Assembly: GCA_035285325.1 (NCBI GenBank)
Contig: JAYKJB010000019.1
Coordinates: forward strand, 1-37,993
Direction: 5' to 3'
DNA from: Candidatus Sericytochromatia bacterium
GTDB taxonomy: Bacteria > Cyanobacteriota > Sericytochromatia > S15B-MN24 > JAQBPE01
DNA: 37,993 nucleotides
The translations under genes and the position numbers were made by a program. This document shows, in pieces, positions 12,215-20,786 of the stretch. Positions within the stretch are counted from its first letter, which is position 1. Each line of letters starts with the position of its first letter. Under the pieces are notes generated by a model. It was not told the origin of the DNA, ran no database searches, and saw nothing but the letters and a program-made list of their open reading frames with translations.

Positions 12215-12239
12215 GGCCCTCGCCGAATGGCTCAGGGCC
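12215..12239. terminator. Hairpin between convergent pspA and LCP genes
   Basis: GGCCCT-C-GCC and GGC-TC-AGGGCC pair around a GAAT loop. The stem overlaps the stop codon of the minus-strand LCP gene and lies 38 bases past the pspA stop, so it could serve both. There is no T tract. Confidence 0.35.
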
Positions 12240-13656
12240 GGGCGGCCAGGCCGAGTTCTCCGGCGTAGTCCTCGCCGACCAGCACCGTGAAGTCCGTCGT
12301 GATGTCGCCCACCGAGGCGTTGACGCGGTCGGGGCTGACCCCGAGATCCTTGCCGACCATGCCGGCGAGCTGGCTGTGACCGGTCTGGCTGATCACACGA
12401 GTGCGAGACAACGTCCTCAGTGAGGCGTCGCCCACGGCCCGAACGGACCAGCCTGCCTCCCGCAATTCCCGGGCGGCCGTGTGGGCGAGACCGGCGCGCG
12501 AGGTCCCATTCAGCACGGTGACCGTGCGCTGGCGGCGAGTGGCGCGTTTGGCGTCGACCGCGGGCTCCAGCCCCATCAGGCGATGACCCAGCTGTCTCGC
12601 GCGGGTGCCATTGGCCAGCCAGTAACTGCCCTTGTACTGCGCGCCACTGAAGGTGCCTGGCAGCATGACCATGCGCACGTCACTGCGTTCCAAGCTGGCT
12701 CCCCACGTTGCCAGCTGAACCAGTTCGGGCCCCGTCATGTTGGTCTTCACGTTGCTCTTGATGGTGTGAAGCATCCGAGGGACGCGCAACAAGGTATCGG
12801 GCGAGAGCACCTGATCGGTCACGGCTTGCATGAATTGCTGCTGCCGCTGGACCCGTCCGATGTCGCCCAGCCCATCGTGGCGGAAGCGAACGTAACGGTG
12901 CGCATCTGCGCCATTCAGCCGATGCCAGCCCCGCTGAAAGTCGATCCGCAAGCCGGCCGTCCGATCCACGTAGTGCATGTCGCGATCGATGTAGAGTTTG
13001 ACGCCACCCACGACATCCACCAGTTTTTCCAGGCCGGTGGTGTTGACCTGGGCCCAGTGCTGGATGGGAATGCCAAGCAATTTCGACACGACGTCGGAAG
13101 CCAGCTTCGGCCCACCGACGTGGAACGCGGCGTTGACCTTGTCCCAGCGTCCGCGCACCAGCACCCGCGTGTCACGTGGGATCGAGACGATGTCGAGGTG
13201 TTTGCCGGCAGGCCCCACGCCCAAGACCAGGATCGTGTCGCTGCGGACCGGACCCGCCGAGGTCTTGTAGCCCTCGCCGTAATTGAGATCGGTGCCGAGG
13301 ACCAGGATGGCGCGTCGCGCAGCGGTGGGGACCAGGCCCTTGGCGATCTCCGCGGCCGTCGGTTGACGCTTGCGCTCCGTGTTGAAGCCATCCATCAGCA
13401 TCGATGCGGAGGCATATCCCAAGGCTCCCAGGAGGCTCAGGCAGAAGGTCAGGAAAACCCCCGCCCGCACCGCTCGCTTGAGGCGTGAAACCTTGCGCCG
13501 GCGGGAGGGCGGTAGCCGGAGTTGACCGGTCTGATAGCCCGGCCCGGTCGGCCCCCTCCCGGCTCCTTCCGATTTCAGACGGGTGGTTTTGCGTCCAAGC
13601 GGTGTGGTCCTGCTGGGAGATTCATCGTAATGGCCCCGGAGGCGTTGCGGTCCCAT
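12232..13656 (-). CDS. LytR-CpsA-Psr (LCP) family cell-wall ligase with LytR_C domain
   Basis: A 474-residue membrane-anchored enzyme of the family that transfers undecaprenyl-linked glycans onto peptidoglycan. A basic cytoplasmic N-terminus (about 1-62) is followed by one transmembrane helix (about 65-86) and the extracytoplasmic LCP domain (about 110-270). That domain shows VRSDTILVLGV, DIVSIPRDTRV and YVRFRHDGLGDIGRVQRQQQ, with the conserved Arg and Asp residues that bind the pyrophosphate and metal. A C-terminal LytR_C domain (about 375-470, with VTVLNGTSRAGLA) follows. Its ATG lies 11 bases after the gltX stop with GGAG between, so the two genes are co-transcribed. The transferred polymer is unknown. 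Confidence 0.92.
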   Translation of the reverse strand: MGPQRLRGHYDESPSRTTPLGRKTTRLKSEGAGRGPTGPGYQTGQLRLPPSRRRKVSRLKRAVRAGVFLTFCLSLLGALGYASASMLMDGFNTERKRQPTAAEIAKGLVPTAARRAILVLGTDLNYGEGYKTSAGPVRSDTILVLGVGPAGKHLDIVSIPRDTRVLVRGRWDKVNAAFHVGGPKLASDVVSKLLGIPIQHWAQVNTTGLEKLVDVVGGVKLYIDRDMHYVDRTAGLRIDFQRGWHRLNGADAHRYVRFRHDGLGDIGRVQRQQQFMQAVTDQVLSPDTLLRVPRMLHTIKSNVKTNMTGPELVQLATWGASLERSDVRMVMLPGTFSGAQYKGSYWLANGTRARQLGHRLMGLEPAVDAKRATRRQRTVTVLNGTSRAGLAHTAARELREAGWSVRAVGDASLRTLSRTRVISQTGHSQLAGMVGKDLGVSPDRVNASVGDITTDFTVLVGEDYAGELGLAARP

Positions 13657-15414: not shown

Positions 15415-17538
15415 ATGAACGCCTCTCCGTCTTACTCGTCGCGTCGCAATCGCACCCAGGTGACCGCTCCTGCGGGAGTGGATCCCATCGGTGCCTTCCT
15501 GCTCAACCAGCGGCGCGAGTTCGTTGGAAGTCGCGGCGAACGCCCTGATTATGATTCCGGCGAGAAGGTGACAGACCTCGGGGAGATCGCGCGCATTCTG
15601 TCGAACTGCGTGGCGGTGGAGCAACCCGAGGAAGATCTGGTGCTCGAGTTGTTGATGCTCGAGGCGATGCTGGAGGACGTACCGGTCAAGTCTCAGGCCA
15701 TTTTGCAGCAGCTCGGGGAACTGGGCGACGAGGTGCGTGACGGCCTGCTGCCCCCCGGCATGATCAATGTCGACTCGCTTCGCCGGCGCACGCGTCGTCT
15801 GCGCCAGCAGCTGAGTGCCTTTGCCAGTCGGGTGTCCGCAGCCCTGGTGATGTTTTTTACCGGCACGCCGGCGCTGATTCAGGCTGCCCACGCGGCCGAG
15901 GACAGCCCCAAGGGGTTTGCCGTCGCCAATGCGCCGCTGGTTCGGGTCATCGACTCCGTGACGGGGCAAGGCGTTTCAGGGGTTCAGATCAAGACGATGG
16001 AAGAGCGTCTGATCGGCACCACCGACACGCAGGGCCAGGCGACGCTGTCGGAGGGATATCTGGAGACCGACTTGCTCAGCTTCGAGAAGGACGGGTACGA
16101 CATGTACCTGCTGGATCGGACCCAGATGTCGGCACGCAACCTGGTGTCCATGAAGCCGCTCAAGGGTCTGGCCTCGGCTGGCGCCGGGGGCGCTCGTGGC
16201 GCGGCTGCGGGCGCGTCCGCCGGTCGTTCGGGTCTTTCGGATGCGTTGAGCCCGACGCGGCCAGGCGGAGCGGGCCGGGCGCTGGAAGGCCCCAAACTGG
16301 CGCACGGCGGGGCGGGTCACGCCCCGCACCTGACGGCCCCCAAGTCGCCGGCGAAACCCGGTGTGCCCGAACTGAAACTTCCTGTTCGGCCTCGGGCCAA
16401 GGGGGCAGAGGCCCATTTGCCTGCGAAACCCGAACTCGACGCCAAATTGCCGCACGCCGCGGGGGCGCATGGCGTCCACAAGCCTGACGGGGCTCACGCA
16501 CCGGCCTCGCCGCAAGACAAACTGCGCCTCGCGATGGGAGGGGCTGGTTCTGCGCACAAGTCTGGCGCGCACGGCGCCAGCTCCCATTCTCTGCCGGGGC
16601 ACGAGGCCAAGGCGCCCTCTGCGTCCGCGCACAGCGGACGTGCCGGCTCCGCGACTCACGCGTCCAAGGGTGGGGGGCACGCCGCGCCGCATGCCGCTCC
16701 GGCCAAGGCCGGCGGGCACGCCGCAGCGGTCCACGCCGAGCACAAGGATGCGACCGGGGGACATCAGTCGGGTCACGAGCCGGTTGCCGATGCCGCCGCG
16801 GCGGGCAAAGCGACCCGCGAAGTGCGCTTGCCTGTCCGCCCCAAAATGGCCGCCGGATCCGGGCATGCGGCATTGGCCGCCCACCCGGGTGGTCACGATG
16901 CGCCAACGTCTCATGCCGCGCCTGAGGCGCATGGGGGGGCGCACGCCAGCGCCGCGTCTCACGGCGGGCACGCCGGCAAGTCGGCTGCCGCCCACGGGGG
17001 CGCTTCTCACCTGGCCTCCCACGACACCGATCGCCAGATGTCCACCCCCGCGCTGCCGTTGCGCCCCCGTGCCACGCGTACCGTGGCGCACGGTGGGCAC
17101 GCGGAGACGGCGCATGTGGTCATTCCCCGCCGCCTGCCTCAGGCGCGCTATCATCTTTCCGAGCATCAGGCGCAGGCACCAGCGGGCGGTGGCGCCCTGT
17201 ATCGGGTGCGCCCCGGGGACACCCTGTCTGGCATTGCCAAGCGAACCCTCGGCAGTGCGGGACGGTGGAACGAAATTTATCAGGCCAACCGCGACAGTGT
17301 TCCCAATCCGTCTTTCCTGCGGGTGGGGCAAAACTTGAGCTTGCCGACGGTGTCGGTGGCCGGGCGTTCGGGCCGGTCCACTTATCGCGTTCGTCCCGGG
17401 GATTGCCTCTACACGATTGCCTCATCGCAACTGGGTAACGGCCGCCGCTGGCAGGCCATCTGGCAGATGAACCGAGAACGGATTCGCAACGCGCGCATCA
17501 TTCATCCCGGCCAGGTCTTGATGATCCCCAACGCGTGA
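15415..17538 (+). CDS. Histidine-rich LysM protein with internal export-signal-like segment
   Basis: A 707-residue protein with an unusual layout. Residues 1-132 are soluble and acidic. A hydrophobic segment follows (about 133-163, with ALVMFFTGTPALIQAAHAAED) that resembles a signal peptide ending in an AHA-A-like cleavage site. Next come a carboxypeptidase-regulatory-like beta sandwich (about 174-240, with GVQIKTMEERLIGTTDTQGQ), then about 340 residues of low-complexity Gly/Ala/His sequence with some 35 histidines and three related motifs LPVRPR, LPVRPK and LPLRPR. Two C-terminal LysM domains (about 596-643 and 660-706, both opening YRVRPGD) should bind peptidoglycan. It is probably a wall-bound protein. 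The role of the His-rich spacer is unknown. Confidence 0.85.
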   Translation: MNASPSYSSRRNRTQVTAPAGVDPIGAFLLNQRREFVGSRGERPDYDSGEKVTDLGEIARILSNCVAVEQPEEDLVLELLMLEAMLEDVPVKSQAILQQLGELGDEVRDGLLPPGMINVDSLRRRTRRLRQQLSAFASRVSAALVMFFTGTPALIQAAHAAEDSPKGFAVANAPLVRVIDSVTGQGVSGVQIKTMEERLIGTTDTQGQATLSEGYLETDLLSFEKDGYDMYLLDRTQMSARNLVSMKPLKGLASAGAGGARGAAAGASAGRSGLSDALSPTRPGGAGRALEGPKLAHGGAGHAPHLTAPKSPAKPGVPELKLPVRPRAKGAEAHLPAKPELDAKLPHAAGAHGVHKPDGAHAPASPQDKLRLAMGGAGSAHKSGAHGASSHSLPGHEAKAPSASAHSGRAGSATHASKGGGHAAPHAAPAKAGGHAAAVHAEHKDATGGHQSGHEPVADAAAAGKATREVRLPVRPKMAAGSGHAALAAHPGGHDAPTSHAAPEAHGGAHASAASHGGHAGKSAAAHGGASHLASHDTDRQMSTPALPLRPRATRTVAHGGHAETAHVVIPRRLPQARYHLSEHQAQAPAGGGALYRVRPGDTLSGIAKRTLGSAGRWNEIYQANRDSVPNPSFLRVGQNLSLPTVSVAGRSGRSTYRVRPGDCLYTIASSQLGNGRRWQAIWQMNRERIRNARIIHPGQVLMIPNA

Positions 17539-17627: not shown

Positions 17628-19409
17628 CTAGCTGCCAATCAGGCTGACGGTCCCGATGCCCTGGGCCTGGTACTGCGGGTGAATCTCCGCAAACGACAGC
17701 ACCGTCAGGTGGGGAAGTTCGCGCTGACAGAGGTCCCGCATGAATGGTCGGATGCGAGGGTCACACAGCACCACTGGCTGGTCGAGATGGCCACATTGGA
17801 CTACCAGCCGACTCGTCAACAAGTCCCGCTGCGAGGAACTCAGGGACAGGGTCTGGCCCAGCGTACCTGTCTGGATACCGTCCAGCAGGGCGCCCTCGAC
17901 CGAGGCATCGAGGAGGATCACGTCGATCACCTGGTCTGGATTGGCCACCGCGGCACACAGCTGGCGCGAGAGTGCCTTGCGGACCAGTTCAGTCAGCACC
18001 AGGGGATCGTTCAACGGTCGGATCTGCGCCGCCATTTCCATCAGCATGAGGTTTTCCACGGTGGCCCGGTTGGGACCGAACTGGTTCGCCAGATAGAACG
18101 GATGAACTGGTTTGGCCGCGACTGCCAGCGTCTCCAGAATGGTCAACTGGTCTCGGATGCTGACCTGCTCCCGCAGTAAATTTTTCAAGATCTGGTGGTA
18201 GTCGCACAGTTCCAATTTCTCAGCGAGCACGGCTTCGATGGTCTGGGGGTGGCGTTCCCTCAGAAAGTCGAGCATGACCGTCAGCTCTTCCATGGCGAAC
18301 ATTTCGTGGGCGTGGCGGCGAATGGTGGCCTCCAGGTGTCGGGCCAGCAATTCATTGCATTCCAGCACGGTGTAGCCCAGGTTACGCAGGCGGGTGCCAG
18401 CGGCGCGTGGCACCCAGATGGCTGGCCTGCGCGTGACCGGGTCGCGGGTGGCGAAACCGGCAATTTGAGGCGGCATGGCATCCGCGTGGGGACTCTCGAC
18501 GGCCAGGTGATAGCCCAGCACCAGCTCCCCTTCGGCCACCGCGTGGCCCCGGACGCGAATCACGTAGGCGTTGGGACGCAACTCCACGTTGTCACTGATG
18601 CGTACCCCAGGACAGATGAACCCCAGGTCCTGGGCAATGTCCGCGCGCATCGGACCGATGCGAGACATCATGTCGCCACCAAGGGCGGGATCGACCAAAT
18701 TGATGAGGTCCATGCCCAGGTCCAGTTCGACCGAGGTCACGCTCAAGGTCGTGAGCATGGCCTCGGGATGCAGCAGGTCCTCTTCGTCTTCTCCCTGGAG
18801 AAATTCGCCCCCGACTCCGGTCGGGGCTTCATCCGAGAGCAGATGATTCAAGTCCTCCGGAACCGTCGAGCGAGCGCCTCCGCGCGCGGGCTCCGCTTCG
18901 TCGGCTGGCTCGAACGGCAAGGTCGCGAACATGTCGTAGAACAGCGGGTAATCACGGAACATCTCCCGACTGGCGAGCAGGTTGCGGTAAAGTCCGTGGA
19001 TGATTTCCAGCGCCTCGGCCTGCACCTGAATTTCGCTGTTCTTTTCCAGCAATTCGGCGGCCCGCTCGGCCTTCTTCAGTTCCTGTTGGTTGTCGCGATA
19101 ATGGTCGAGCAGCGCCGTGATGTTGAATTTCAGATACACGGACAGCTTGATCTGGGCGGCCATTTCTTTGATGCGACTGGGCCCCAACGCGAGGTCCAAA
19201 GGAATGGTGGCGCGGTCGATCGGCACCGGACTTTCGGCCGTTCGCAAGGCAAACTGCAACTGATCAAACAGGGGCCGGGCTGCCAGTTCCCGCTGGCGGG
19301 CCAGCGCCACGGCTGACCGGAAGGCATCCCGGCGATCGTCCAGCTCGGCGCCGGGTCGGATGGGCTGCATCCGGCCAAACCAGGATCTCAGTTTGTCGAA
19401 CACCGCCAT
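17628..19409 (-). CDS. Soluble FHIPEP-family protein (FlhA/SctV cytosolic domain without the export-gate channel)
   Basis: A 593-residue protein whose residues about 222-592 follow the cytosolic domain of FlhA/SctV, the nonameric export-gate ring of flagella and type III secretion. Matching blocks are ELDLGMDLINLVD, SRIGPMRADIAQDLGFICPG, VRISDNVELRPNAYVI (FlhA: VRIRDN), LGYTVLECNELLARHLE, LLREQVSIRDQLTILETLA and, at the very end, PHLTVLSFAEIHP. The eight-helix membrane channel of FlhA is absent. Residues 1-221 are instead a soluble, mostly helical region (with LGPSRIKEMAAQIKLSVYL) and an acidic linker. The ATG at 19409 has GAGGGAG upstream. No flagellar or type III gene is adjacent. The family match is firm; the function is unknown. 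Confidence 0.85.
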   Translation of the reverse strand: MAVFDKLRSWFGRMQPIRPGAELDDRRDAFRSAVALARQRELAARPLFDQLQFALRTAESPVPIDRATIPLDLALGPSRIKEMAAQIKLSVYLKFNITALLDHYRDNQQELKKAERAAELLEKNSEIQVQAEALEIIHGLYRNLLASREMFRDYPLFYDMFATLPFEPADEAEPARGGARSTVPEDLNHLLSDEAPTGVGGEFLQGEDEEDLLHPEAMLTTLSVTSVELDLGMDLINLVDPALGGDMMSRIGPMRADIAQDLGFICPGVRISDNVELRPNAYVIRVRGHAVAEGELVLGYHLAVESPHADAMPPQIAGFATRDPVTRRPAIWVPRAAGTRLRNLGYTVLECNELLARHLEATIRRHAHEMFAMEELTVMLDFLRERHPQTIEAVLAEKLELCDYHQILKNLLREQVSIRDQLTILETLAVAAKPVHPFYLANQFGPNRATVENLMLMEMAAQIRPLNDPLVLTELVRKALSRQLCAAVANPDQVIDVILLDASVEGALLDGIQTGTLGQTLSLSSSQRDLLTSRLVVQCGHLDQPVVLCDPRIRPFMRDLCQRELPHLTVLSFAEIHPQYQAQGIGTVSLIGS

Positions 19410-19658: not shown

Positions 19659-20786
19659 ATGACCGAACTTTCCACGCCCGCGACCCTGTCGCGTACGCCC
19701 CTCCATCAGGAGCACTGCTCGCTCGGAGCCAGAATGGTTCCCTTCGCGGGATGGGAGATGCCGGTCCAGTACAGCGGCATCCTGGATGAGCACCACGCGG
19801 TTCGACAGGCCGCAGGCCTGTTCGATGTCTCTCATATGGGGGAGTTCCAGGTGCGGGGCGTTGGGGCGGAGGCCTTTGTGCAACGGGTCGTCGCCAATGA
19901 TGTGGCCCGTTTGGCGGCGGACCAGGCCCTCTACACTCAATTCACCCGTCCGGATGGGGGTACCGTGGATGACTTGCTGGTCTACCGGCGCCCGGATGGC
20001 TTCTTGCTGGTGGTGAATGCTTCCAACATCGCCAAGGATTGGGCTTGGCTGAAGGGCCACCTGTCCGGCGACGTGGAGCTCACGGATGTGTCCGATGATA
20101 CCGCCATGTTGGCTTTGCAAGGGCCGTGCGCCGAGCAGATTTTGGCGCCCATTGCGGTGCTGCCCACACCTCTGTCCTCGCAAGGGGCGTTCCGCTGGCA
20201 GGATGGTCTAGTCGCTGGTCTGGCCTGCACCGTGGCCCGCACGGGGTACACGGGCGAGGATGGCTTCGAAATTTTCTGCGCGCCGGCGGACGCCCCCGCG
20301 CTGTGGCGCGCGTTGCTGGCAGCCGGCGCCGAGCACGGCCTGAAGCCGGCCGGTCTGGGGGCCCGGGACACGTTGCGTCTCGAGGCGGGCTTGCCCCTTT
20401 ACGGCCACGAGCTGACGGACCAGATCAGCCCGGTGATGGCCGGCCTCACCTGGAGCGTGAAGCTGGATAAAGGGGATTTCCTCGGGCGTGAGGCCCTGAC
20501 CGCCCAGCGCGCCGGGAGCATGTCGGCTCGCGTGGTGGGTCTGGTGTTGGAAGGCCGGGCGATCGCCCGGCAAGGTTACGCCGTTTTCGCCGCGGGCCAG
20601 CCGGTCGGTGAGGTCCTCTCCGGCACGCTCTCGCCCACGCTGCAACAACCCATCGCGACGGCGCTCGTGGCGGCCTCCGCCATCGACAGCCCCTTGACCG
20701 TCGAGATTCGCGGGCAGCAACATGCCGCCACGCTGGTGCGTTTGCCGTTCTATCGTCGCCCCGCCACCACGAGAGATGGAGCTTGA
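19659..20786 (+). CDS. gcvT: Glycine cleavage system T protein (aminomethyltransferase)
   Basis: Transfers the methylene carbon from the aminomethyl-lipoyl arm of H protein to tetrahydrofolate and releases ammonia. It has 375 residues, the family size. Signature blocks are MVPFAGWEMPVQY, GLFDVSHMGEF, ARTGYTGEDGFEIF and GLGARDTLRLEAGLPLYGHE, the last carrying the catalytic-site Asp and Arg of the family. The ATG at 19659 is the first gene of gcvT-gcvH-gcvPA; gcvH begins three bases after the gcvT stop codon. Confidence 0.97.
   Translation: MTELSTPATLSRTPLHQEHCSLGARMVPFAGWEMPVQYSGILDEHHAVRQAAGLFDVSHMGEFQVRGVGAEAFVQRVVANDVARLAADQALYTQFTRPDGGTVDDLLVYRRPDGFLLVVNASNIAKDWAWLKGHLSGDVELTDVSDDTAMLALQGPCAEQILAPIAVLPTPLSSQGAFRWQDGLVAGLACTVARTGYTGEDGFEIFCAPADAPALWRALLAAGAEHGLKPAGLGARDTLRLEAGLPLYGHELTDQISPVMAGLTWSVKLDKGDFLGREALTAQRAGSMSARVVGLVLEGRAIARQGYAVFAAGQPVGEVLSGTLSPTLQQPIATALVAASAIDSPLTVEIRGQQHAATLVRLPFYRRPATTRDGA

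Follow-up and report, generated by a model that had tools for sequence, protein, structure and literature searches.

A free-standing FlhA cytosolic-domain protein with an altered chaperone pocket and a new helical domain in Sericytochromatia

A 37,993-nucleotide stretch of Candidatus Sericytochromatia DNA (the window) encodes a 593-aa protein, P0001, in which the complete cytosolic domain of the flagellar export-gate protein FlhA (FlhA-C) carries a helical domain in place of the membrane half. The ORF is real and intact and lies at the stated coordinates (17628..19409), on the minus strand. There is little doubt that P0001 is a soluble, paralogous FlhA-C protein. Its gene derives from a duplicated copy of the 'beta' FlhA that the host itself carries, and P0001 is one of several membrane-free FlhA-C families of non-photosynthetic Cyanobacteriota. 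As far as the literature and solved structures searched show, the only setting in which FlhA-C is known is the docking ring of flagella and injectisomes, and the literature search returned no paper mentioning both FlhA and Sericytochromatia.

The original prediction recognized the whole FlhA cytosolic domain in residues 222-592 (SD1-SD4; 17634..18746, minus strand), and this was confirmed. Pfam FHIPEP matches residues 211-592 in two stretches (E=8.6e-73), and the solved structure closest to P0001 is that of B. subtilis FlhA-C (3mix, E=5e-58). AlphaFold, run with 19 sequences as input, gives residues 222-592 of P0001 the FlhA-C fold at a pLDDT of ~90, and the top Foldseek matches in the PDB are all FlhA/SctV cytosolic domains (E ~1e-25, target TM 0.78-0.86); a predicted structure without the FlhA-C fold, which had been named as grounds for doubt, did not appear. 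The alignment also reveals an insert of ~30 residues (433-464; 18018..18113, minus strand) after the SIRD...ILETLA segment, which is common to P0001 and its orthologue (see below), absent from FlhA, and predicted to be floppy, with low pLDDT over much of its length.

The membrane half is absent, again as predicted. The FHIPEP match includes profile positions 321 onward only, indicating that the membrane half is missing, and no 19-residue window of P0001 reaches the transmembrane threshold in hydropathy analysis, compared with 99 in the host FlhA encoded on contig C61. The eight-helix membrane domain with FHIPEP loop, as in the FlhA/SctV gate, was not found in P0001. The soluble helical region proposed to replace it corresponds to a confidently predicted all-helical domain, termed 'H' here (residues 23-165; 18915..19343, minus strand; pLDDT ~90, and 91 when folded alone), which is unrelated to FlhA. 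A linker with low pLDDT and predicted disorder follows (residues 166-221; 18747..18914, minus strand), and its end (HPEAM, residues 214-218) aligns with the FlhA linker motif PE(x)V/M. Searches with the H domain gave no PDB match by Foldseek at E<=0.001 and nothing above cut-off in Pfam, and its identity as a known flagellar chaperone (FlgN, FliS or FliT) was rejected on these grounds. An amphipathic N-terminal helix (VFDKLRSWFGR) was likewise considered as a membrane anchor and rejected, since its high moment did not reach significance in comparison with shuffled sequences (p=0.15).

P0001 is related to both FlhA and SctV and is a member of neither, with NCBIfam equivalog scores of 251 bits for FlhA (cut-off 772) and 127 bits for SctV (cut-off 692). 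It shares with the cytosolic domain of the FHIPEP family (PF00771) the whole SD1-SD4 fold, the linker motif and a GYXLI-like motif (GMDLI), and it is 41-45% identical to beta FlhA C-domains. It differs in its lack of a membrane domain, the helical domain found instead, the ~30-aa insert, and a chaperone-binding dimple with the changes F459T and T490R. A known case of an export-gate cytosolic domain that exists as a separate soluble protein is FlhX, a free-standing FlhB C-domain homologue reported to act with the flagellar gate. FlhX is among the fT3SS-associated proteins (PMC10746217). However, FlhX represents a different gate protein, FlhB, whereas P0001 has a divergent binding pocket and an additional, fused domain; FlhB C-domain (FlhX-like) homology was not detected in P0001, for which FHIPEP is the only Pfam match above cut-off.

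An orthologue of P0001 is present in another genus (G001:C137, RYN_339). It is 53% identical over residues 8-591 and has the same architecture, and its locus (LCP-gltX-LysM-gene-(K+ channel-like)-gcvT) is syntenic with that of P0001. Other relatives are a second protein from the same genome (G001:C257) and a divergent one that lacks SD4 (G006:C3); the named sources of homologues are the MAGs Cyanobacteria bacterium RYN_339 and Candidatus Sericytochromatia bacterium CBMW_12. Descent was assessed with a tree of 17 rows. P0001, its orthologue and the second RYN_339 protein form a clade (support 98/97) that is nested with the beta FlhAs of the order (100/99), and the FlhA nearest to this clade is that on the host's C61 (87/88). 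A topology with beta FlhA as a clade excluding the P0001 group was rejected (AU p=0.005). Duplication of the host's flagellar FlhA is the likely origin of the P0001 gene. The possibility that P0001 is one part of a split FlhA was rejected, because the flhA genes of the host are separate and have their own membrane halves and because P0001 is nested in beta FlhA. Derivation from an injectisome gate was ruled out as well, by the higher score for FlhA than for SctV and by the position in flagellar beta FlhA. In a larger tree, other free-standing ('solo') families of Sericytochromatia fall in the same larger clade as P0001, and a Vampirovibrionia solo family groups with the FlhA of its own class (100/99), although long branches leave the precise placement of the remaining solo families uncertain.

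The P0001 gene is surrounded by genes for an LCP protein, gltX, a LysM-domain envelope protein (15415..17538, plus strand, convergent; domain read from sequence) and gcvT (19659..20786, plus strand; read from sequence), none of which is an export or flagellar gene. Since gcvT is divergent, the P0001 gene looks monocistronic, and no sigma-28-like promoter was found upstream of it. The original remark on the lack of flagellar and type III genes nearby holds for the window, but not for the genome, in which flhB and fliPQR are present in flagellar clusters with ordinary flhA. There are three ordinary flhA genes in such clusters, one cut by a contig end: fliM-fliN-cheY-fliO-fliP-fliQ-fliR-flhB-flhA on C102 (cut by the contig end), flhA-flgD-flgE with fliM/N-, fliO-, fliP- and fliR-like genes on C54, and flgI-sigma-fliF-flhA-flagellin on C61 (gene names were read from sequence; FHIPEP and FliP were confirmed with profiles). 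The host genome also encodes further FlhA-C-like proteins, namely soluble ones on C65 and C21 and a C5 pair, of which one member has membrane helices and the other a single N-terminal hydrophobic stretch. LIM-like zinc-domain proteins are encoded between flhB and flhA on C102 (L011 15839-16846) and on a flagellar contig of RYN_339 (G001:C118; L093 889-2031).

Flagellar chaperones are bound by FlhA at a dimple that includes D456, F459, L461 and T490, and the linker makes ring-stabilising contacts (PMC8166844, PMC10965912, PMC5932034). The dimple residues of Salmonella (L438, I440, P442, D456, F459, L461, V482, V487 and T490; after PMC10965912, PMC8166844) map to L302, V304, S306, D323, T326, R328, L349, L354 and R357 of P0001 (18339..18506, minus strand). 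Aspartate is kept at D323, F459 is replaced by T326, L461 by R328 and T490 by R357, so that the conserved flagellar D456/F459/T490 reads D/T/R. Position 490 is T or A in 14/14 FlhA rows and in 0/11 solo rows (R, S, V, R, Q, L, R, Q, R, H, R), and position 459 is F in 12/14 FlhA rows compared with 1/11 solo rows, where the rows are not independent and involve ~six lineages. The altered dimple suggests that chaperones of the FliS/FliT/FlgN type probably do not dock on P0001 in the normal way, with docking altered or lost. Some binding may nevertheless survive, since D456, which makes a hydrogen bond with a chaperone tyrosine, is kept and L461 is variable already within beta FlhAs. Residues invariant in beta FlhAs are kept at 59-67% in SD1, SD3 and SD4, compared with 48% in SD2. 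The assembly framework thus appears to be kept in P0001, and ring formation is plausible because the linker, SD1, SD3 and SD4 are retained. The 'repurposed docking ring' originally envisaged is accordingly borne out as a repurposed free-standing FlhA-C, but not as a ring that docks cargo-chaperone complexes, in view of the changes at 459 and 490.

Relatives of the H domain also occur as free-standing proteins. The H family (a name coined here) comprises helical adaptor-like proteins of Sericytochromatia with a helical bundle and a terminal F-x-D-x-P-L-L-x-x-L/F motif, with up to 20 matches in one genome. Profiles of the P0001-type N-domain (A4) and of the helical proteins whose genes adjoin another solo FlhA-C gene (A5) both match G004:C8, G005:C97 and G001:C339, and comparison of the two profiles with hhalign gave an alignment of 115 columns (E=7e-4, probability only 27%). 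An HMM of the free-standing H family matches the N-domains of G006:C33 (8e-8) and, weakly, of the P0001 orthologue (0.004); the L038 H protein misaligned and was left out of the full-length alignment (A1). Through these intermediates, and although direct comparisons taken singly score modestly, the N-domain of P0001 likely belongs to this separate, multi-copy family. The T-x-P-L motif occurs 34 times in H proteins, in their tails, compared with 3.1 expected by shuffling, a 12-fold density over other proteins. P0001 contains T-I-P-L at residues 68-71 (19197..19208, minus strand), for which any role is putative, and T-x-P-L is also present in both RYN_339 homologues. In the host genome an H gene (L092 2493-3464, G000:C63) lies between two Ser/Thr kinase genes, and in another genome two H genes (L095 6244-7834, G007:C3) adjoin genes for a GAF-GGDEF protein, an Arf/MglA-like GTPase and a roadblock protein. 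These adjacencies to kinases and to MglA-like GTPase/roadblock genes, along with the T-x-P-L enrichment, are the grounds for a putative link of the H domain to signalling. The H family may be a group of phospho-signalling adaptors of Sericytochromatia that has not been described before. The members at L092, L095 and L038 (7536-9884) are cytosolic and helical, and their disordered tails contain T-x-P-L/TGxL motifs. LCP-family proteins (12232-13656 in the window; L035 3244-4647) contain a conserved cytosolic TGxLRLPPSRRRK segment, which is similar to the H-family tail motifs.

The distribution of solo FlhA-C proteins was examined in 292 genomes of the phylum and 146 of a Vampirovibrionia-like class, with some class labels inferred from gene content and genome size. 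FliP is present in 18/18 genomes of the class Sericytochromatia and FHIPEP in 17/18, while no FHIPEP match was seen in any photosynthetic-type genome listed or in family f14. Solo proteins were seen only in genomes with FlhA and FliP, with two apparent exceptions (G109 and G256) that lack a full FlhA. Both have FliP, and the missing FlhA is therefore likely an assembly gap; the idea of a solo FlhA-C in a genome without export apparatus was not upheld. An HTH_17-FlhA-C fusion (E=4e-13 and 1e-47), present in family f6 of Sericytochromatia (G011:C80, G013:C62), resembles P0001 as a membrane-free FlhA-C of the same radiation joined to a non-export domain. Unlike in P0001, its N-domain is DNA-binding, and one of the two loci (L041 5765-7018; L042 6315-7556), L042 in G011, is divergent from fliP-fliQ-fliR-flhB, where the fusion is perhaps a candidate regulator of export genes. 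Most family-f9 genomes sampled encode a free-standing FlhA-C protein (family F) alongside normal FlhA, as is the case for P0001, but family F arose separately within the FlhA of its own class and has another N-terminus. In Vampirovibrionia-like genomes this protein is 493 aa long (L048 5725-7203, L049 6224-7702, L050 5674-7152), with a normal flhA elsewhere in the genome.

What P0001 does can be approached from these features. We give about even odds to a putative role as a signalling-linked scaffold or regulator, that is, a repurposed FlhA-C rather than a cargo-docking ring. An flhA copy would have lost its eight-helix membrane half while keeping the whole SD1-SD4 and linker, and this soluble copy would have gained the H domain. 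The FlhA-C part would probably self-assemble, or pack on an FlhA-C ring, via SD1/SD3/SD4 and the linker; with the altered dimple it would offer chaperones of the FliS/FliT/FlgN type no normal dock, and the H domain would couple it to Ser/Thr-kinase and MglA/roadblock-type signalling, such that the assembly would respond to a signal instead of feeding the export channel. The gene's surroundings weigh against this reading, as no signalling or flagellar gene is adjacent. Its main rival, to which we assign roughly half that weight, is that P0001 is a cytosolic decoy or reservoir of flagellar export, which binds cargo, chaperones or FliI/FliJ, or inserts into the FlhA-C ring, and throttles or orders export in the manner of FlhX. 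Derivation from the host's own beta FlhA lineage, retention of D456, and the G011 fusion gene facing fliP-fliQ-fliR-flhB are consistent with such a role, and so is the co-occurrence of solo proteins with FliP and FlhA, together with the absence of FHIPEP from the photosynthetic-type genomes listed. However, hardly any solo family retains F459 or T490, and the P0001 gene has neither a flagellar gene nearby nor a sigma-28-like promoter.

A role outside export, as the ring or scaffold of a type IV pilus or of a polarity machine, is unlikely. On host contig C21, an H gene, a solo FlhA-C gene (family C) and a pilT-type ATPase gene lie side by side, and the H gene pair beside the Arf/MglA-like GTPase and roadblock genes also fits, as pilus polarity in myxobacteria is under MglA/MglB control. 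Each of these is one locus, where contig ends limit the view, and no pilus gene is found near the P0001 gene. That P0001 is instead a split or decaying FlhA with no new function is very improbable: although it evolves faster than its orthologue (end branch 0.85 vs 0.17), the long ORF is intact in two genera with conserved synteny and architecture, the two proteins have the new insert in common, and the host genome has separate flhA genes. 

Taking the signalling-linked reading further, we tentatively propose, at somewhat below even odds, that FlhA-C in non-photosynthetic Cyanobacteriota is a detachable, general-purpose cytoplasmic module that was freed several times, changed in its pocket and recombined with DNA-binding, signalling-adaptor and other domains, with P0001 as the version linked to signalling by Ser/Thr kinases and MglA-type GTPases.

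The radiation of FlhA-C proteins that lack the membrane half, differ in the pocket and have acquired other domains suggests that an essential component of the export gate can be put to new use. Free FlhA-C proteins are natural soluble forms for structural work and make it possible to study ring assembly independently of chaperone docking. They also bear on the flagellated lineages that are sister to cyanobacteria, in which export systems have hardly been studied.

Other FlhA-derived genes were seen in the same genomes. FlhA-C-like proteins without SD4 are encoded at L013 1235-3114 (G000:C65), L043 6501-7412 and L045 5672-6688; the L013 copy overlaps a 142-aa gene that resembles a pilus ATPase N-terminal domain by eye, without Pfam confirmation. 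An FlhA-derived gene pair (L012 7651-10577, L044 33-2140) consists of a membrane form with a reduced N-half and a single-TM FlhA-C form, and adjoins a CBS/poly-A-polymerase-like gene and a site-2-protease-like gene. Finally, open frames of 108-178 aa whose FHIPEP match is confined to the final ~95 profile positions (G012:C104, G014:C304, G017:C12, G013:C16, G011:C64, G008:C39 and G016:C682) possibly represent a family of free-standing FlhA SD4 domains.
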